In this document: in pieces, positions 45,779 through 55,134 of the stretch | Layout of the letters: each line of letters starts with the position of its first letter | How positions within the stretch are numbered: the first letter of the stretch is position 1 | Source of the DNA: Chromatiales bacterium | GTDB taxonomy: Bacteria > Pseudomonadota > Gammaproteobacteria > Chromatiales > Chromatiaceae | Assembly: GCA_028280505.1 (NCBI GenBank) | Contig: JANQLO010000080.1 | Location: forward strand, 1 to 58,608 | Length of the DNA stretch: 58,608 nt | Direction of reading: 5' to 3' | The notes under the pieces: model-generated | Told to the model about the DNA's origin: nothing | The model's database searches: none | What the model saw: only the letters and a program-made list of their open reading frames with translations | Made by a program: the position numbers and the translations under genes

Positions 45779-47902
45779 TCAGTGTGGCTTACAGTCGACG
45801 CCATAGCGCAGGATCAACTCGCTTAGTACCTGCGGATCGACTGGTTTAGCGACGAATTCGTCCATGCCGGCCCGCAAACAGGCGGCCCGGGTCTCCTCCG
45901 CGGCATTCGCGGTCAGCGCGACGATCGGCAGATGGTGGCCGGATTCTTCCTGAGCGCGATAGGCCTTGGTGAAATCGATACCATCCATATGCGGCATGCG
46001 TAAATCGACGAAAGCCAAATCGAACGCGGTTTCGGTCGCCGCGGCGAGCGCGGCCTGGCCGTCTCTGGCCAGGGTTACCTGACAACCGACCTGACCAAGC
46101 AACTTGGTAATCAGCTTGGCGTTGATATCGTCGTCCTCCGCCACCAGTACGCGACCACCGCCGGCAGGTATCTGCGGCATAGTGAGATCATCACCCGCCT
46201 CGGCCGCGATCACCGGTCGCAAACAATCGGCCATTGCCCGCCAAAGCTGTTGGGCATCGACGGGTTTGAACACGCTGGCAGCGGTAAAGTCCGCATTTGC
46301 CGGCTTACGGCGCGGATAACGCAAGTAAAGCAACGAGGTTCGTTCGCCCAAGAGCTTGCTTACCAAGGCACCGGTCTGCTCGAGATCGATCGCTCGCGGC
46401 CCGTCGGCGATCACCGCCAACCGGTCATGCGTTATCGCATCGTCACGGACCAACTTGCCCAAACGGTCGATACCGGAAGCCACGTGCACATTCATCTGCG
46501 CGGCCTCACACAATTCCGCGATCACACCGGCACTGTACGATTGCGGCTCCAGTATCACGACGTCATAGCCCCGCAGAATTTCCGGGGCCGTTGGCGGAGC
46601 GGTTTCGACATGGCCCAGCAAGGGCAATTCCACCGTGAAGGTACTGCCTTCGCCCTCGGCACTCTCGACACCGATGGTGCCACCCATCAGCGCCACCAGA
46701 TCGCGTGAGATTGCCGTGCCGAGACCGGTCCCGCCATGCCGTCGAGTCGAAGAATGGTCGGCCTGCCAGAAACTGTCGAACACATGTCCCACGCGATCGG
46801 CCGGAATGCCGATGCCGGTATCGCTGATCTGAATCCGCAAATAAGGCTCGGCGAAGCCATCGGCCGCGGGCATTGCACGCGCGTCGACCCGAATGTGTCC
46901 GCTGTCGGTGAATTTGACCGCATTGCCGATCAGATTGAAAAGGATCTGGCGAAAACGCAGCTGATCGCCATGCACCTGCTGCGGCAGATCGGGCGCAACC
47001 CGGCAAATCAGTTCGACGCCTTTGTCCAATGATTGATTGCACAAGGCCCAACAGGTCTCACTCAAAGTCTCGCGTAACTCAAAGGTCACCGGCTTGAGTT
47101 CGAGCTTGCCGGCGTCAATCTTCGATAAATCGAGAATGTCACCGATCAGGCCCTGCAAAACCCCTGCAGAGGTATTGATCGAATCGACATACTCGCGCTG
47201 CTCGCTGTCCAGTCGCGTGCGATTGAGCAGACCGGCCATGCCGATCACACCGGACAACGGGGTGCGCAGTTCATGCGTCATGGTCGCGAGAAAATCGCCA
47301 CGCGCTCGATTTGCCGTCTCGGCGGCCTGTTTGGCGTTTTGCAGCTTACGCAACAGGTTGTATTCGTAAGCCGGCAGTACCACCAACACCAGCGCGATAA
47401 ACGAAACCTCTAAGGTTTGCGCCTGCCAATCGCCGAGAATCGCGGCCACTACCGTGAATGCCAGCAAACTGCACAAAGACGCCAACAACAGATTGAGCGC
47501 ACCGTATCGCATGCCTTGCGACAGAAACGAAACCGCATACAACAAATAGAAGGGAACGGTGGAATCCCCGGTGAGATAAATGGCGCCCGTGGTGCCGCTC
47601 AGATCGGCCAGGATGCTGACATAGGTCCGGCCGCGCCAGAGCCCCGGGCGCTTGAGCACGCTGATCAAGATACCGCCGTACCAGACCAGATGCACGCCGA
47701 ACAACAATGCAAACTGTTGCCAAGTGAAGTCGTATTCGCCGAAATAGCCGGACAAACCGAGCATCGGCACCATGAATGCCCAGATCGACAATCGAATGAC
47801 CGCCGACTGGAACTCCTGAGACGTGCGGATCTCAGGACGAATACGCGACTCAAACATCCTCTGCCCCGGGGTAAACAGCGCCGTACCGGTAAACGCTGTC
47901 AT
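45779..47902 (-). CDS. Hybrid sensor histidine kinase, RpfC-like
   Basis: A 707-residue membrane kinase. Five to six hydrophobic helices occupy about 35-185, then the dimerisation domain with the phospho-accepting His in MTHELRTPLSG (H210), an ATPase domain (NLIGNAVKFTDSG, DTGIGIPADR, GGTGLGTAIS), a second segment without a clear receiver aspartate (about 450-560), and a C-terminal receiver with Asp near 630 (LAFVDLRMPHMDG). The membrane part, with SDTVPFYLLYAV-like and MRYGALNLL sequence, resembles RpfC, the fatty-acid-signal sensor; no RpfF or RpfG gene is nearby. It separates rnfE from nth, which are usually adjacent. Confidence 0.9.
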   Translation of the reverse strand: MTAFTGTALFTPGQRMFESRIRPEIRTSQEFQSAVIRLSIWAFMVPMLGLSGYFGEYDFTWQQFALLFGVHLVWYGGILISVLKRPGLWRGRTYVSILADLSGTTGAIYLTGDSTVPFYLLYAVSFLSQGMRYGALNLLLASLCSLLAFTVVAAILGDWQAQTLEVSFIALVLVVLPAYEYNLLRKLQNAKQAAETANRARGDFLATMTHELRTPLSGVIGMAGLLNRTRLDSEQREYVDSINTSAGVLQGLIGDILDLSKIDAGKLELKPVTFELRETLSETCWALCNQSLDKGVELICRVAPDLPQQVHGDQLRFRQILFNLIGNAVKFTDSGHIRVDARAMPAADGFAEPYLRIQISDTGIGIPADRVGHVFDSFWQADHSSTRRHGGTGLGTAISRDLVALMGGTIGVESAEGEGSTFTVELPLLGHVETAPPTAPEILRGYDVVILEPQSYSAGVIAELCEAAQMNVHVASGIDRLGKLVRDDAITHDRLAVIADGPRAIDLEQTGALVSKLLGERTSLLYLRYPRRKPANADFTAASVFKPVDAQQLWRAMADCLRPVIAAEAGDDLTMPQIPAGGGRVLVAEDDDINAKLITKLLGQVGCQVTLARDGQAALAAATETAFDLAFVDLRMPHMDGIDFTKAYRAQEESGHHLPIVALTANAAEETRAACLRAGMDEFVAKPVDPQVLSELILRYGVDCKPH

Positions 47903-48744: not shown

Positions 48745-49170
48745 ATGTTCGGACAAGACCGAGAACAACTCCGCCGTTTTTTTAAAACCGCCTGGGACAA
48801 ACGCCAGAGCGGTGAAGCCCTGCAACCGCTGGAACGGATGGTGGTGCAAGTGATCGAACAACATCCGGAGTATCAGCGTCAAATGAGTGACGACGATCAA
48901 CTGCTGCGGGACTTCACGCCGGAACTGGGTGAGACCAATCCCTGGCTGCATATGGGAATGCACATCGCTCTTGCCGAACAACTGGGTAGCGATCGACCAC
49001 CGGGCATCCGAGAACATTATCGCAACATCGTCGGCCGTTACGGCGACCGACACAGCGCAGAGCACGCGATGATGGAATGTCTCGGCATGAGCCTTTGGGA
49101 GGCACAGCGCAGCGGCGCACAACCGGACGAAAAGGCCTATCTGGCCTGCCTGTCCAGGCTGACGCGATGA
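48745..49170 (+). CDS. DUF1841 family protein
   Basis: A 141-residue soluble protein, full length for the family: MFGQDREQLRRFFKTAW, PLERMVVQVIEQHPEY, NPWLHMGMHIALAEQLG, HSAEHAMMECLGMSLWEAQR. The His-rich helices (HMGMHIAL, AEHAMMECL) hint at a metal-binding or DinB-like fold, but no function is known. It has an ATG with GGAATGA ahead. It precedes the RiPP operon by about 215 bp on the same strand and is probably a separate transcript. Confidence 0.85.
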   Translation: MFGQDREQLRRFFKTAWDKRQSGEALQPLERMVVQVIEQHPEYQRQMSDDDQLLRDFTPELGETNPWLHMGMHIALAEQLGSDRPPGIREHYRNIVGRYGDRHSAEHAMMECLGMSLWEAQRSGAQPDEKAYLACLSRLTR

Positions 49171-49385: not shown

Positions 49386-49838
49386 ATGTCGAAGAAATCC
49401 ATGAAACCTGTCGCCGCCGCCATCGGTGCCGCTTTCGCCGGTTCAATGATGCTCGCAGGCGCCGCGAGCGCATCCAGCGCCACCGGCAATCCTTTCGGTC
49501 TCACCGAACTGAACGGTGGCTACGCGCAAATCGCCAGCAACCATGGCGAAGGCAAATGTGGTGCCGGCAAATGTGGCGGCTCATCGGGCGGCGGTGAAGG
49601 CAAGTGCGGCGCCGGCAAATGCGGCGGCTCCAAGGCCAGCGGCGGTGAAGGCAAATGCGGTGCCGGCAAGTGCGGCGGCTCCAAGGCCAGCGGTGGCGAA
49701 GGCAAGTGCGGCGCCGGCAAGTGCGGCGGCTCGTCCAGTGCCGGTGAAGGCAAGTGTGGCGCCGGTAAGTGCGGCGGCTCCAAGGCCAGCGGTGGTGAAG
49801 GCAAATGCGGTGCCGGCAAGTGCGGCGGCTCCAAGTAA
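49386..49838 (+). CDS. hvfA: Exported Cys-rich RiPP precursor, HvfA/bufferin-like
   Basis: A 150-residue precursor peptide. A Sec signal peptide (MSKKSMKPVAAAIGAAFAGS to about AGAASA) is followed by a conserved NPFGLTELNGGYAQIA stretch and then six EGKCGAGKCGG units with 12 cysteines, all spaced C-x4-C, and no other Cys. EGKCG is the recognition and modification motif of HvfA-type peptides, whose cysteines are oxidised by MNIO enzymes and bind copper. The next genes encode that enzyme, its partner and a DoxX protein. I start at ATG 49386 with AGGAGAG upstream; a GTG at 49380 is less likely. Modification here is predicted, not shown. Confidence 0.88.
   Translation: MSKKSMKPVAAAIGAAFAGSMMLAGAASASSATGNPFGLTELNGGYAQIASNHGEGKCGAGKCGGSSGGGEGKCGAGKCGGSKASGGEGKCGAGKCGGSKASGGEGKCGAGKCGGSSSAGEGKCGAGKCGGSKASGGEGKCGAGKCGGSK
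49548..49835 (+). repeat. Six tandem 48/51-bp units within the precursor gene
   Basis: Units begin at 49548, 49596, 49647, 49698, 49746 and 49797. Each encodes EGKCGAGKCGGS plus a short linker of the GGG, KASGG or SAG type; the last is cut to 13 codons before the stop. Units 2, 3 and 5 encode identical residues, while third positions vary a little (AAA/AAG, TGC/TGT). Expansion by unequal exchange is likely. Confidence 0.9.
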
Positions 49839-49939
49839 GCCGCTAACCCGCTAAGCAAGACCGCGGGCATCCTCCAACCGCGGTCGAGCCCTCTACGGCG
49901 GATCCCTGTACGGGATCCGCTGCTCTCAGGAACATCGCC

Positions 49940-50812
49940 ATGCAGACCGAACCCACCCAACAAACCCAGCCCAAAACCGCACTCAGCGGCGCCGGTCTCG
50001 GTTTTCGCCTCGCGCTGATCGACGAGATGAAGGAAACACCGCCGACGAATGTCGATTTCTTCGAGGTCGCCCCGGAAAACTGGATCAACGTCGGCGGCGC
50101 GCGCGGCAAATCGCTGCGCCACTTTACCGAGCGCTATCCGCTAGTATGCCATGGGCTGTCGCTGTCGATCGGAGGCCCGGCACCCATCGACGACGCGTTT
50201 CTGCATGACGTCAAGGCCTTCCTGGATCTTCATCAGGCGAAAGCCTATACCGAACACCTTTCATACTGTGGCGACAGCGGTCAGATGTACGACCTCATGC
50301 CGATCCCGTTCACCGAAGAGGCGGTGAGCTATGTCGCCGCACGCATTCGCCACGTGCAGGACGTGCTGGAACGTCGCATCGGGGTGGAGAACGTGTCTAC
50401 TTACGCCGCACCGACCGGAGAGATGACCGAACTCGAGTTTCTGAATGCCGTGGTCAACGAGGCCGATTGCGGCTTCCACCTCGACATCAACAATATCTTC
50501 GTCAATAGCAAAAACCATGGCTTCGACGCACGCGAATATCTGGCGGGCATACCGGCCGACCGAATCATTTATGCGCATATCGCGGGTCATCTTTGCGAAG
50601 AGGACGACCTTCGGATCGACACGCACGGCGAGGACGTGTTGCCCGAAGTGTGGAGCCTGCTGGACGAGGCCTACTCGCGCTATGGCGTCTTTCCGACCTT
50701 GCTCGAACGTGATTTCAATATTCCGCCACTCGCCGATTTGCTATTGGAAGTCGACGAAATCGTAAAACGCCAACAACGCTGGCAGGAGGTCAAGGGTGTC
50801 AACGTCGCCTGA
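49940..50812 (+). CDS. hvfB: Multinuclear non-haem iron oxidative enzyme (MNIO, DUF692), HvfB-like
   Basis: A 290-residue TIM-barrel enzyme of the MbnB/DUF692 family, which uses a two- or three-iron site to oxidise cysteines of ribosomal peptides. Likely metal ligands are all present: H71 (CHGLSLS), E105-H106 (TEHLSY), E150-N151 (VENVS), H180 and D182 (FHLDINN), H213 and H217 (AHIAGH), D228-H229 (DTHGED) and E256 (LERDFN). The opening GLGFRLALIDE and FFEVAPENW are typical. Its target is the precursor encoded 101 bp upstream, and its partner is the overlapping DUF2063 protein (17 bp). Confidence 0.93.
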   Translation: MQTEPTQQTQPKTALSGAGLGFRLALIDEMKETPPTNVDFFEVAPENWINVGGARGKSLRHFTERYPLVCHGLSLSIGGPAPIDDAFLHDVKAFLDLHQAKAYTEHLSYCGDSGQMYDLMPIPFTEEAVSYVAARIRHVQDVLERRIGVENVSTYAAPTGEMTELEFLNAVVNEADCGFHLDINNIFVNSKNHGFDAREYLAGIPADRIIYAHIAGHLCEEDDLRIDTHGEDVLPEVWSLLDEAYSRYGVFPTLLERDFNIPPLADLLLEVDEIVKRQQRWQEVKGVNVA

Positions 50813-51575
50813 GATGTCGCTACCGGAATTCCAGCGTCAGCAACTCGCGTTCACGGCACACATTCGCGACCCGGAAAACAATCCGGTACCGGATGGCATA
50901 CCGGCGCGGCGCATGGGCATCTATACCGAGCTGTTCTTCAACAATATCGACGATCAGCTGTCGACCAATTTTCCGATACTGCGCCAAATCAGCAGTGACG
51001 AACAATGGTACGCGATGGTGCGCGACTTCATGATTCGTCACCGCGCCGAAACACCCTTGTTCACCGAGGTCGGCCAGGAGTTCCTGGAATATCTCCGGCA
51101 GGAACGCAAACCACACGCCAACGACTGGCCCTTTATGCTCGAACTGGCTCATTACGAATATGTCGAACTCGCGGTCTATATCAGCGAGGAGGATGACGAA
51201 CTGGCGGATATCGACCCGAACGGCGATCTGCTCGAAGGTCGCCCGGCGGTCGCGGCAACGGCATGGAACCTGAGCTATCAATGGCCCGTACATCACATCG
51301 GGCCGGACCATCTACCGGATGAGCAGCCGAACGAACCAACACACCTGGTCGTCTATCGCGACCGGCTCGACGAGGTGCATTTCCTGGAGATCAATGCCGT
51401 TACCCAACGCCTGCTGCAACTCCTGAAAGAAAACCCGAAGCTCAGCGGTCTCGATGTACTGAAAACGATCGCCGAGGAACTCGCTCATCCCGATGTCGAT
51501 ACCGTAATCAAGGCAGGCAAGGATATTCTCGACGATTTACGTCAGCGCAATGTCATTTTGGGCAGCCGCGCCTAA
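50796..51575 (+). CDS. hvfC: DUF2063 partner protein of the MNIO enzyme, HvfC/MbnC-like
   Basis: A 259-residue protein. The N-terminal DUF2063 domain (about 8-100: FQRQQLAFTAHIRDPE, RRMGIYTELFFNNIDDQLST, FPILRQISSDEQWYAMVRDF) binds the precursor leader or core in related systems and forms a complex with the MNIO enzyme. A C-terminal domain of HvfC type follows (about 125-255). The GTG start 50796 has a strong GGAGGT site 5 bp ahead and overlaps hvfB by 17 bp; ATG 50814 is possible. The overlap implies a 1:1 complex. Confidence 0.9.
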   Translation: MSTSPEMSLPEFQRQQLAFTAHIRDPENNPVPDGIPARRMGIYTELFFNNIDDQLSTNFPILRQISSDEQWYAMVRDFMIRHRAETPLFTEVGQEFLEYLRQERKPHANDWPFMLELAHYEYVELAVYISEEDDELADIDPNGDLLEGRPAVAATAWNLSYQWPVHHIGPDHLPDEQPNEPTHLVVYRDRLDEVHFLEINAVTQRLLQLLKENPKLSGLDVLKTIAEELAHPDVDTVIKAGKDILDDLRQRNVILGSRA

Positions 51576-51617
51576 GCATGGTTAAAAAACTTCAAACGCG
51601 TCGTACCGAGGATAACA

Positions 51618-52184
51618 ATGATTGGATTGCTCAACCGTCTGCAGGATCTGCTCGACAGCTTCCGCGCAATCGATTTTCTTGCTCCCCTGGCCCTAAGGCT
51701 CTATCTCGTTCCGGTATTCTGGATGGCCGGCACCAACAAGCTCGGCGATATGGAAAACACCATTGCCTGGTTCGGCAACCCGGACTGGGGACTGGGCCTA
51801 CCGATGCCGGCGCTTATGGCCTGGGCCGCGGCATTGACCGAGGCCGCGGGCGCCATACTGCTGCTGATCGGTCTTGCAACCCGCTGGATCTCCATCCCGC
51901 TGATGATCACCATGGTGGTCGCTGCGGTTACCGTACACCTGGAAAACGGCTGGGCGGCAATCGCCGAGACACCGGAATCGGCGGAACGCCTGAATGCGGC
52001 AAATTCCATCCTGCAGGAACACGGTAACTTCAGCTGGTTGACGGGCTCGGGAGAGTTCGTGGTACTGAACAACGGCATAGAGTTCGCCGCGACTTACTTC
52101 ATCATGCTGTTGGCGCTGTTCTTCATCGGCGGCGGCAAATACCTCAGCGTCGATTACTGGATTGCCCAACGCTTCCGCGACTGA
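51618..52184 (+). CDS. hvfD: DoxX family membrane protein, HvfD-like
   Basis: A 188-residue inner-membrane protein with four helices (PLALRLYLVPVFWMAGTNKL, LTEAAGAILLLIGLATRW, PLMITMVVAAVTVHLENGW, FAATYFIMLLALFFIGGGKY). DoxX proteins accompany MNIO/DUF2063 pairs in most HvfABCD and bufferin operons and may pass electrons or quinones to the modification step or help export; the role is not established. It is 42 bp after hvfC and the last gene before a terminator. Confidence 0.88.
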   Translation: MIGLLNRLQDLLDSFRAIDFLAPLALRLYLVPVFWMAGTNKLGDMENTIAWFGNPDWGLGLPMPALMAWAAALTEAAGAILLLIGLATRWISIPLMITMVVAAVTVHLENGWAAIAETPESAERLNAANSILQEHGNFSWLTGSGEFVVLNNGIEFAATYFIMLLALFFIGGGKYLSVDYWIAQRFRD

Positions 52185-52205: not shown

Positions 52206-52237
52206 AAGGCCCGGCAGATCCCGGGCCTTTCGTTTTT
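52206..52237 (+). terminator. Rho-independent terminator of the RiPP operon
   Basis: A 9-bp stem (AAGGCCCGG/CCGGGCCTT, 52206-52214 and 52221-52229) with a 6-nt loop, followed by TCGTTTTT. It lies 21 bp after the DoxX gene and 4 bp before the stop of the convergent metA, and may serve both. Confidence 0.85.
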
Positions 52238-52241
52238 ACGC

Positions 52242-53309
52242 TTACCGAGCCAAACCCAGCGGATTCTGCGGGTCGACGCCATCCATGAAGGGCAGACGCC
52301 GGTCGCTGTGGGTCAATTGATAAACCAAACCGACCCAGTTGCCGACCACCGCGTGCGCCGTGTCACGCCAAGTATTGTCCAGCCCCTGGGTCACCAAGGT
52401 ATCCGGAAAATCCGGAATGGCCCGGCCGGCAGCACGTGTACTATCCAATCGTGCACGGTACTCGCGCAGTACGGCCTTGTCGCGGGGGGAAAAGTAATGA
52501 TCGACGAACGGCGGATAAACACCGGCCTCACCCGCGGCATAACGCATCACCTCACGTTTGTACTCCTTCAGCAGCGAGATGGTGTCGTATTCCGGATGCC
52601 CTTGGAAAAACACAAAACGAAAGCCGTCGGGACTGGTCGCCAAATGCACCCCGACCTCACTCTCGGCAAGCACCTGTAGACCGGCCTCGTCGAACTGCGC
52701 ACGCGAAACGTCATTCCAGCGCGAGTGCGGTACATCGAAACGTGTGTTGACGTCATGCACCAGGGGATGGTGCTTATCGACCACCCGGTGTGGAAACACC
52801 CCCCAGGTCTTGCGCGGTCGTGGGGTACGCCGCTGGCCATAGCGAAAATCCAATACCGCATGGGTCGCCAAACAGCTGCACAGCGTCGACGTGACATTCT
52901 CGTATGCCCAATCGATAACGTCGATCAGCGGCGCCCAGAACGGTTCCTCCGACAACGCCGGACCGGTCACGTTGGCGCCGGTGATGATCAGCGCATCCAG
53001 CCCCTGGCCACGCACCTGCTCGAAAGTGTCGTAATACGCATCGATATGGGCACGCGCCCCGGCGTCACGCGTCAGTTCGGGCAAAGTGAACGGATGCATA
53101 TAGAACTGAGCAATCGGATTACTCTCACCGATCAGACGGAAGAACTGACGTTCCGTCGCAGCCAAGGCCTTGTCCGGCATCATGTTGAGCAGGCCGATAT
53201 GCAGTTCGCGGATATCCTGGTGCAAGGCACGATCCGGCGGCAACACATTGAGGCCTTCCTGGCGCAAGCGTCCGAAGGTTGGCAACGCATTGTGGGCGAC
53301 GATAGGCAT
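52242..53309 (-). CDS. metA: Homoserine O-acyltransferase (MetA family; probably O-succinyltransferase)
   Basis: A 355-residue enzyme of methionine synthesis that transfers a succinyl or acetyl group to homoserine. The glutamine-amidotransferase-like fold is seen in LHIGLLNMMPDKALAATERQ, ALIITGANVT, the nucleophile region STLCSCLATHAVLDF, WGVFPHR and the His of FFQGHPEYDT. Acyl-donor choice cannot be told with confidence from motifs alone. The start is ATG 53309, 4 bp after the stop of an ATPase gene on the same strand, so the two are probably co-transcribed; a longer frame into the ATPase gene is not used. Confidence 0.9.
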   Translation of the reverse strand: MPIVAHNALPTFGRLRQEGLNVLPPDRALHQDIRELHIGLLNMMPDKALAATERQFFRLIGESNPIAQFYMHPFTLPELTRDAGARAHIDAYYDTFEQVRGQGLDALIITGANVTGPALSEEPFWAPLIDVIDWAYENVTSTLCSCLATHAVLDFRYGQRRTPRPRKTWGVFPHRVVDKHHPLVHDVNTRFDVPHSRWNDVSRAQFDEAGLQVLAESEVGVHLATSPDGFRFVFFQGHPEYDTISLLKEYKREVMRYAAGEAGVYPPFVDHYFSPRDKAVLREYRARLDSTRAAGRAIPDFPDTLVTQGLDNTWRDTAHAVVGNWVGLVYQLTHSDRRLPFMDGVDPQNPLGLAR

Positions 53310-53313
53310 AGGC

Positions 53314-54159
53314 TCAGTTGCTACGGGCGATGGCCGTCTCCAACAAATCGAGAAAATCCCGTTCGTCACGCACCTCACCGATGTCGCGCGACGTTACCGT
53401 ATATCCCCGCTTGGCAATCTCCTCGTAGCGCGGCACGCGGGAACGGAACAGCCGCGGGAACACCCAACGGGTGAACGCGTCCGGATCCATCTCGGCCGCG
53501 TAACGGATGCCGTTCTCCTCAAGATAGACCGCCAATTGCTCGGTGAGAAATTCAGGCCGATAGTACAAAGGCTTGGGATCGCTTTGCGCACGGGCGATCA
53601 GCTTTTGTTCCTCTTCCTCATCGGTCACCTGGATGTACAAGATCAGCGTATGTTCGGCCAACAGCTCGATCACACCCGGCTCTTCGAGTTCGCACAGCGA
53701 GCCACCGACGTCGTTGACGAAATGAGGATACCCATAGATCTGGCGCCCCTTTTCGATAAATGCCGGCACGTCGCGCATTGCGGCAATCTCGGCATCACGG
53801 TATCGCGCCTGGCGCTGTTGGAAATCTTCCAGCGGCACACCGCCCCGCTCCGGATCGCCAAGCTTGCCGACAAACGATAGCACCGGTCCCAGATCGGAGA
53901 CCTTGATGTTGTTACGGATGTAGATCCAATCGTTGCGCAGCAACTCGCTCAGGAAAGGCACCTGCATCGCCTGACCCTTGATCAAATCGAGTATCGCCTC
54001 ATCGAGATAGCGGGTGCCGATTCGATAGTCACCCGAATAGTGATACCACTGGTGATGACGCAGCATCGCGGAAATATGGGTCTTACCCACGCCGGACATC
54101 CCGACCAGGGTGACCTTCTTGTACTTCCAGTTACGGAATTCCTCGACGCTGAACTTCAC
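53314..54159 (-). CDS. P-loop ATPase of unknown function
   Basis: A 281-residue soluble protein. A Walker A GMSGVGKTH lies at 19-27, after KKVTLV, in a nucleotide-kinase-like fold. VNDVGGSLCELEEPG is a candidate Walker B or substrate loop, and the rest is helical with many charged residues (DEEEEQKLIARAQ). I do not recognise a named family function; similar genes are annotated only as ATPase. It is directly upstream of metA with a 4-bp gap, which may mean a link with methionine or C1 metabolism or only shared transcription. Confidence 0.75.
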   Translation of the reverse strand: MKFSVEEFRNWKYKKVTLVGMSGVGKTHISAMLRHHQWYHYSGDYRIGTRYLDEAILDLIKGQAMQVPFLSELLRNDWIYIRNNIKVSDLGPVLSFVGKLGDPERGGVPLEDFQQRQARYRDAEIAAMRDVPAFIEKGRQIYGYPHFVNDVGGSLCELEEPGVIELLAEHTLILYIQVTDEEEEQKLIARAQSDPKPLYYRPEFLTEQLAVYLEENGIRYAAEMDPDAFTRWVFPRLFRSRVPRYEEIAKRGYTVTSRDIGEVRDERDFLDLLETAIARSN

Positions 54160-54238: not shown

Positions 54239-54997
54239 TCAGGCCGCGCGGGCGGCCGACGCGGCGAGTGCAAAGACATCCCCGGCCTGCGCGGTACGAT
54301 AACCACGCGAACGCAGCACGGCCGCCGCGGCTTTGGATTCATAATGGTAAAGCACCAAACGTTCACGCAGCTCGCGTGGATAATGGGCCGCCAAATCGTC
54401 GACCCCGGTATGCGAGGGATTAGCGACCAGGCCGCAATCGTGAAACACCGTCTCGCCATCGGCTGCGAAGGTCGTCAGTACCTCGGGAACGGGCCGCGTA
54501 TCGCCGGTATACACGAAACAGCCCTTGAGGCCAAAACCGAAGGCCGTGCGGTAAGCATGATGGTTCACCGCGAAAACGTCGAAGCAATGACCGGCATGCC
54601 AAAAACGCTCACCCACCGGCATCAGCTGAAAACGCTCCCAAAAGTTCACCCCACCCTCGGCCAGCTTGTAAGGGTCTTCGGCCAGACGCTGATGTAAACG
54701 GGCGACGATCTCGACGGGCACATAAAGACGCGGCGGCGACAAATCGGGAAACTCACAGGCTAGACGATAAAACAGATTCTCCAGACCGCCGACATGATCC
54801 AGATGGGTGTGAGTAATAAAAATCGCCTGCGGCAAGGCACCGTAGCGCGAAAGATAGGCCGGCAACACGGTGGGGCCACAGTCGATCAACAGCAATGGTC
54901 GACCTGCCGGATCTTCCAGGACCGCTGCGGCATTCCCCAGTTCGTGCGCAGCGGCATTGCCGGCGCCGAGAAAGCGCAACTGCAGATTGTTCGGCAT
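54239..54997 (-). CDS. MBL-fold metallo-hydrolase
   Basis: A 252-residue metallo-beta-lactamase-fold protein. The metal motif THTHLDHVGGLENL, an Asp in VYTGDTRPVPEVL and a His in HDCGL supply ligands. The opening LRFLGAGNAAAHELGNAAAVL and the D-C-G in LIDCGPT are as in ribonuclease-Z-like and phosphodiesterase-like members. The substrate is unknown. ATG 54997 has TTGGAG 8 bp ahead; the frame upstream adds an unrelated leader. Confidence 0.85.
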   Translation of the reverse strand: MPNNLQLRFLGAGNAAAHELGNAAAVLEDPAGRPLLLIDCGPTVLPAYLSRYGALPQAIFITHTHLDHVGGLENLFYRLACEFPDLSPPRLYVPVEIVARLHQRLAEDPYKLAEGGVNFWERFQLMPVGERFWHAGHCFDVFAVNHHAYRTAFGFGLKGCFVYTGDTRPVPEVLTTFAADGETVFHDCGLVANPSHTGVDDLAAHYPRELRERLVLYHYESKAAAAVLRSRGYRTAQAGDVFALAASAARAA

Positions 54998-55134
54998 CGA
55001 CGAACTCCAATGGATGCAAAGCAAACGCCAGTATAGTCGGGCAAAGATGTCCATCGGGTGACGATTGATAAATTATCCAGGAGCAAAACCGGCGACCGCC
55101 CTATACTGCGCGTTCGATCATCGCCGGAACCGTC

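Follow-up and report, generated by a model that had tools for sequence, protein, structure and literature searches.

A probable captophorin operon with alternating EGKCG and AGKCG motifs in a Chromatiales bacterium, from a lineage that has changed at the Arg16-equivalent of HvfB

Introduction

Operons of the EGKCG captophorin/oxazolin type turn Cys residues into copper-binding 5-thiooxazoles (PMC13097082, PMC12452194). The class combines Sec-signal precursors with EGKCG repeats, an MNIO enzyme, a PME1 partner and often a DoxX protein, its 5-thiooxazoles form on the Cys of KCG, its products bind copper, and it counts about 2,000 Buf_EGKCG proteins (PMC13097082, PMC12452194, PMC13419390). Fontiphorin, oxazolin and gonophorin all carry 5-thiooxazoles, the first and the last of these are reported to bind Cu, and PMC13097082 concludes that the characterised products generally bind Cu.

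How does such an enzyme read its peptide? An AlphaFold model in PMC13097082 sets Glu1 of the motif between Arg15 and Arg16 of FonB, and from model and mutants that paper proposes that Arg16 pairs with the Glu before the modified Cys, leaving open why Glu6 matters more. The FonB-R16A enzyme showed lower turnover with charged residues at position 1 and still made product. Among the Glu-to-Ala single variants of FonA named in the cited text, E6A, which removes the second-motif Glu, is the impaired one, with diminished turnover, and E1A and E11A were modified twice. When position 1 was changed in both motifs at once, only Pro and Arg failed among the variants tested, and an AKCGA substrate was modified once (PMC13097082).

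We analysed a window of 58,608 nucleotides, which is one whole contig (G000:C11) of the 4.65-Mb genome of a Chromatiales bacterium. The operon in it is of a kind already described and ordinary for its class, and its departure lies in the second motif of each repeat and in the enzyme residue at the Arg16 place. In the literature searched we met neither AGKCG repeats nor an HvfB clade without Arg16; the string AGKCG is absent from the main text of PMC13097082, and supplements may list it.

Results

A four-gene operon of the EGKCG/oxazolin branch

The genes hvfA, hvfB, hvfC and hvfX follow one another on the forward strand, with a terminator-like hairpin behind them (Table 1). A sequence-only reading of the window had placed the operon at 49386-52184, which proved exact, and its ordered set of four genes ending in a terminator is borne out by the genes and the terminator-like hairpin. 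Its label of a bufferin-type operon holds in so far as this is an MNIO-DUF2063 peptide operon. It fails for bufferin 1, which shares the logic of MNIO plus DUF2063 (plus DoxX), because the window precursor is not DUF2282 and HvfB stays under the cut-off of the MNIO_BufB model (265 of 310 bits). Judged by family models, the operon instead belongs to the EGKCG/oxazolin (captophorin) branch.

Table 1. Features of the operon and of related loci in the same genome (positions are those of the window unless another contig is named)
Feature	Position	Strand	Description
hvfA	49386..49838	+	precursor, 150 aa, 12 Cys; signal-peptide-like start; six EGKCG-AGKCG pairs; NF050137 match
Cys-repeat core	49548..49835	+	period 51 nt, 5.8 copies
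first hvfA-hvfB hairpin	49859..49885	+	8-bp stem
second hvfA-hvfB hairpin	49896..49922	+	11-bp stem, without T-run
hvfB	49940..50812	+	MNIO (DUF692) enzyme, 290 aa; R23-L24 where most relatives have Arg-Arg
hvfC	50796..51575	+	DUF2063 + NGO1945_C partner, 259 aa; PME1, RRE type
hvfX	51618..52184	+	DoxX-family membrane protein, 188 aa
intrinsic-terminator-like hairpin	52206..52229	+	9-bp stem + T-run
orphan EF-hand-type precursor	G000:C14:46249-46629 (L202:1333-1713)	+	one EGKCGAGKCG; no MNIO adjoining
DUF2282 bufferin operon	G000:C14 ~27.9-30.3 kb (L002:1165-3567)		precursor, BufB-type MNIO, DUF2063 partner, sigma-70-family factor

The matches to PF05114 and to the HvfB, HvfC, HvfX and KCGExKCG models lie far beyond chance. 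HvfB matches PF05114 at 1.1e-100 and the HvfB equivalog NF003818 with 409 bits (cut-off 360), which confirms the DUF692/MNIO family proposed earlier; against the MbnB model of methanobactin it reaches 33 bits, under the cut-off of 325. HvfC matches PF09836, PF22106 and NF050145, which makes it a PME1 (DUF2063, RRE) partner beside the MNIO, and its sole solved relative by sequence is 3DEE. That this DUF2063 partner overlaps the enzyme gene was rightly seen: hvfC passes the HvfC equivalog (311 bits, cut-off 142) and shares 17 nt with hvfB, its GTG start standing behind an AGGAGG that ends 6 nt upstream. An in-frame ATG lies within hvfC at 50814. The DoxX protein was also rightly recognised (HvfX equivalog, 239 bits, cut-off 80), and its earlier name hvfD gives way to hvfX, as in the NCBI model.

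On the hvfA side the operon is flanked by a DUF1841 gene (48745-49170) and on the hvfX side by a homoserine O-succinyltransferase gene on the opposite strand (52242-53378). The 4.5 kb scanned for terminator-like hairpins hold six sites, against a shuffle mean of 4.6, and the one behind the operon has the longest stem of the six and follows hvfX directly. Upstream, beyond endonuclease III-like and DUF1841 genes, lies a hybrid histidine kinase with a receiver domain (45779-47902, minus strand). A metallo-beta-lactamase-fold protein (54239-55054, minus strand) scores 53.3 bits with the Anti-Pycsar Apyc1 model (Pfam cut-off 50) and is probably an ordinary hydrolase. A minus-strand ORF at 49520-50122 overlies the repeats; it is probably a mirror image of the array and no gene.

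The precursor and its place among described systems

Every Cys of HvfA sits inside a KCG, and the 12 KCG sites fall into six EGKCG and six AGKCG, arranged as units of 16-17 residues in which an EGKCG-AGKCG pair is followed by a linker of 6-7 residues; the alternation is strict in 6/6 pairs. The KCGExKCG domain model NF050137 matches with 61 bits (cut-off 19.5), and Pfam gives no match. Of the Sec-exported Cys-repeat precursor claimed before, the Cys repeat is borne out by these sites and this model, and the signal peptide is a judgement by eye, from a start with KK, a hydrophobic run and ASA that looks Sec-like. The description as an EGKCG-containing peptide suits six motifs and misses the other six. 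Usual in EGKCG captophorins and oxazolins, and not stated as a requirement of the class, is a Glu at position 1 of both motifs together with Arg15-Arg16 in the enzyme; the window has AGKCG in 6/6 second motifs, and R23-L24. A leader motif PF..EL..GY was tried and dropped; it fitted 85 of 134 precursors.

With fontiphorin (fonABC, PMC13097082) the window has in common a KCG-repeat precursor, an MNIO, a DUF2063/RRE partner, and the catalytic Asp with its neighbouring Phe (window D258 and F259); it differs in its AGKCG second motif, in the Leu at the Arg16 position and in having hvfX, since the cited text describes fon as precursor, MNIO and PME1 only. The maturation protein families are also those of the Haemophilus influenzae oxazolin (hvf, PMC13419390), whose HvfB, HvfC and HvfX models are all passed, whereas the window precursor has 12 KCG sites against six modified ones there and reaches only 48 bits with the HvfA equivalog NF050188 (cut-off 95). 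The Buf_EGKCG/oxazolin family of PMC12452194 shares repeats of ~17 residues with two motifs and a four-gene core, but both motifs of its repeat are EGKCG.

Metal site and model of HvfB

Twelve polar residues of HvfB (H71, H106, E150, N151, D182, N185, N189, H213, H217, D227, H229 and E256) are conserved in 98% or more of the 179 relatives, and all lie inside the stretch aligned with 3BWW, the best of the solved relatives by sequence, ahead of TglH and MbnB. The earlier statement that all expected metal ligands are present agrees with these residues. At the place of H217 the sequence alignment gives MbnB a Phe; that alignment spans only HvfB residues 134-277, and the one with TglH only 108-256. 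Which of the conserved residues are the iron ligands is partly our assumption. PMC13419390 predicts N175, D242 and H244 of its HvfB as site-3 ligands, and these would correspond to N185, D227 and H229 of the window enzyme. An AlphaFold2 model built from a three-row alignment (mean pLDDT 71, pTM 0.76) retrieved 3BWW first in a structure search (TMq 0.75), followed by TglHI and Mbn entries. L24 stands at the start of the helix after the first strand in this model, and T154 comes four residues past a strand whose last residue is E150; both predicted placements agree with strand ends of the barrel.

A clade changed in both motif and enzyme

The comparison started from 193 HvfB-type matches, 74 from the window's family, 120 from a class sample (E <=1e-75; three shared with the family) and two from Kangiella; 179 were aligned and used, and 14 were left out. 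A split hvfB match in one genome (G115:C1:533062-533911) fell short of the E limit and was left out; the hvfB match L027 (genome G016) has an in-frame TAA, and both copies may be broken or mis-assembled. Any ORF with two or more [KR]C[GA] that ended no further than 900 bases upstream was taken as a precursor. By this rule 31 of the 179 rows have none, and a few passing rows with 2-4 [KR]C[GA], for example L059 and L068, are probably chance. FonB Arg15/16 were equated with window positions 23/24 through the conserved Arg pair, not through the FonB sequence; no other N-terminal Arg pair has ~90% Arg in both columns (92% and 89% here). The Neisseria gonorrhoeae enzyme has Arg-Arg there, with EGKCGEGKCG.

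The window enzyme falls in a clade of 18 in which this position has come loose. Of the 161 rows outside the clade, 159 carry Arg at position 24 and the other two a gap and an Asp; inside, Arg occurs once in 18, and the rest have L, M, S, F, N or Q. Y154 and Y195, kept at ~97% outside, change in the same clade, to T in 17/18 at 154 and to F, L or S at 195. The peptides have changed as well. The first motif of each tandem pair keeps its Glu, and the second begins with a non-acidic residue in 47/47 pairs of the clade (A, T or S throughout) against 13/268 elsewhere. Per locus, a non-acidic second motif accompanies all 15 enzymes without Arg24 and 7 of the 109 with it, the remaining 102 having a mostly acidic motif. 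Behind these counts are the 124 rows that have a tandem pair, apart from L134 and L193, which were omitted; non-acidic here means at most half acidic, so that L151 and L153, with one of two acidic, count as non-acidic.

A quick tree of 114 rows, of which 88 have a tandem pair, was made after removal of the two Arg columns. It gives the clade an SH-aLRT of 100 on a branch of 0.55 and allows a single origin of its changes. By parsimony, a single step suffices for the motif change and two steps for that of Arg24. Since supported branches yield one independent pair of enzyme and peptide changes (sign test, p = 1), the association has no independent statistical support. Three loci that branch off beside the clade (L036, L037 and L044) retain Arg24 with A or T in the second motif, so the peptide probably changed before the Arg was lost; this order is tentative, with deep branches weak or open and separate gains possible. 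Together with L014, a locus of the same genus that has Arg with S/A second motifs, they indicate that an enzyme with Arg can go together with a second motif that is not acidic.

The strongest alternative is that Arg24 drifted away with no bearing on the peptide, any HvfB-type enzyme taking AGKCG, and we give it a substantial chance that still falls short of even. The small number of steps and the four Arg-bearing loci just named suit it, as do the reports in PMC13097082 that position 1 tolerated all the residues tested except Pro and Arg, that E1A and E11A were modified twice and that FonB-R16A was active. Against it stand the near-constancy of position 24 outside the clade beside seven residues (Arg included) inside it, the change of Y154 and Y195 in that same clade, and the impaired FonB turnover with E6A (PMC13097082). 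Because a single origin is possible and FonB is known from published work to accept most variants at position 1, co-evolution of the repeat motif and the Arg16-equivalent is plausible, not proven, and functional coupling of the two changes comes out a little under an even chance.

Across 398 genomes of the phylum, the string GKCGAGKCG turned up at seven places, all in the window's genome; the others listed are from outside the window's family, so the search neither supports nor opposes the association. A promoter motif shared 5' of hvfA was sought in 16 clade members. With one mismatch allowed the best 10-mer occurred in 8/16, where 30 shuffles reached at most 4-6, but it was rejected because most of its places seem to belong to the tail of the upstream gene.

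Hairpins between precursor and enzyme genes

The stretch 49836-49942 folds with a z of -3.47 as a whole, into two stems with no T-run. Hairpins were scored in 48 hvfA-hvfB gaps of 45-199 nt, with 50 stretches upstream of hvfA as controls: z is below -2 in 29/48 gaps (13/14 in the clade, 16/34 in other relatives) against 5/50 controls, and stems of at least 7 pairs occur in 25/48 gaps against 6/50 controls. A T-run stands behind such a stem in 1/48 gaps, and the stem sequences differ among the example gaps printed. RiPP operons often make more precursor than enzyme, and these hairpins may serve that end as a block to 3' decay or as a partial terminator.

A second candidate substrate in the same genome

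The seventh GKCGAGKCG, found by the pattern search at C14:46417, belongs to a 126-aa protein, the orphan precursor of Table 1. It has a signal-peptide-like start and an EF-hand-like stretch (PF00036 under its cut-off; NF050137 21.4 bits against 19.5). Its neighbours, identified by eye, are an apparent AraC-type regulator on one side and a spermidine-synthase-like gene on the other. The genome has two MNIOs only, one on C11 and the other on C14, 17 kb from the orphan and part of the DUF2282 bufferin operon of Table 1. Relatives of this protein (E <=1e-6) occur in 2/8 other members of the genus (G007 and G002), on contigs other than that of hvfB, and the EF-hand-type precursors of the genus are non-acidic at the second-motif start in 3/3 cases (A, S and Q). 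As an independent test of the association these precursors were set aside as weak: L151 and L153, which have Arg enzymes and EF-hand-like precursors, show Q and P in the first pair. The orphan resembles the Buf_EGKC|EF-hand type of PMC12452194, a source in which modification of unlinked precursors by enzymes from other loci is raised as a possibility, and it is possibly a second substrate of HvfB in trans.

Discussion

We consider it likely that the product of this operon is a captophorin, a RiPP metallophore of the EGKCG type, and that the shift in motif and at the Arg16-equivalent is part of its lineage's version of the system. The four genes very probably yield a secreted peptide whose Cys are turned into copper-binding rings, and the probable copper-binding role assigned to the peptide in the first reading stands by homology with the captophorins (PMC13097082). 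We infer the chemistry, the copper binding and the export of the product, and likewise any causal link between the motif and Arg changes. HvfA would start with a Sec signal peptide, and HvfC, the DUF2063/RRE partner, would bind it; the iron enzyme HvfB would oxidise the KCG Cys to 5-thiooxazoles, with a loss of 4 H at each and up to about 48 Da for 12 sites; HvfX would play some helping part; and the exported peptide would bind Cu(I) in the periplasm or outside. The lineage would have lost the second Glu of each pair (Glu6 in FonA numbering), probably ahead of the Arg16-equivalent that is thought to read this position, and the window HvfB should accept AGKCG without that salt bridge.

Might the product answer oxidative stress or another metal stress, such as gold or sulfur redox, in place of copper? 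The DoxX partner would suit such a role, and among the six neighbouring ORFs scanned with Pfam (one without a match) none is an evident copper gene; the general Cu binding of the characterised products (PMC13097082) points the other way, and this reading is improbable. Slightly more improbable again is that only the EGKCG Cys are modified and the AGKCG Cys stay thiols, giving alternating thiooxazole/thiol copper sites, a notion in keeping with the strict order of the two motifs in the window, with the uniform A, T or S of the clade and with the diminished turnover of E6A, but opposed by the processing of the tested position-1 variants other than Pro and Arg, by the single modification of AKCGA (PMC13097082) and by a KCG, the part that is oxidised, intact at 12/12 sites.

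A captophorin operon with a changed repeat and a changed enzyme thus remains our preferred reading, and a further step from it is doubtful, if less so than either of the last two alternatives. On that account the lineage would have re-set the substrate reading of a thiooxazole-forming MNIO, the second Glu being lost in peptides at two unlinked loci and the enzyme losing Arg16 and two Tyr that are otherwise conserved; the outcome would be an enzyme relaxed enough to act on both precursors, or else alternating modified and unmodified Cys with mixed copper sites.

What sets this lineage apart from the published class is a double change, in the repeat of the peptide and in the enzyme residue proposed to recognise it. 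The clade is a natural variant at both the Glu6 and the Arg16 places, and some Arg-bearing relatives share the peptide change, so the recognition rule proposed for these enzymes could be tested with natural enzyme-peptide pairs.
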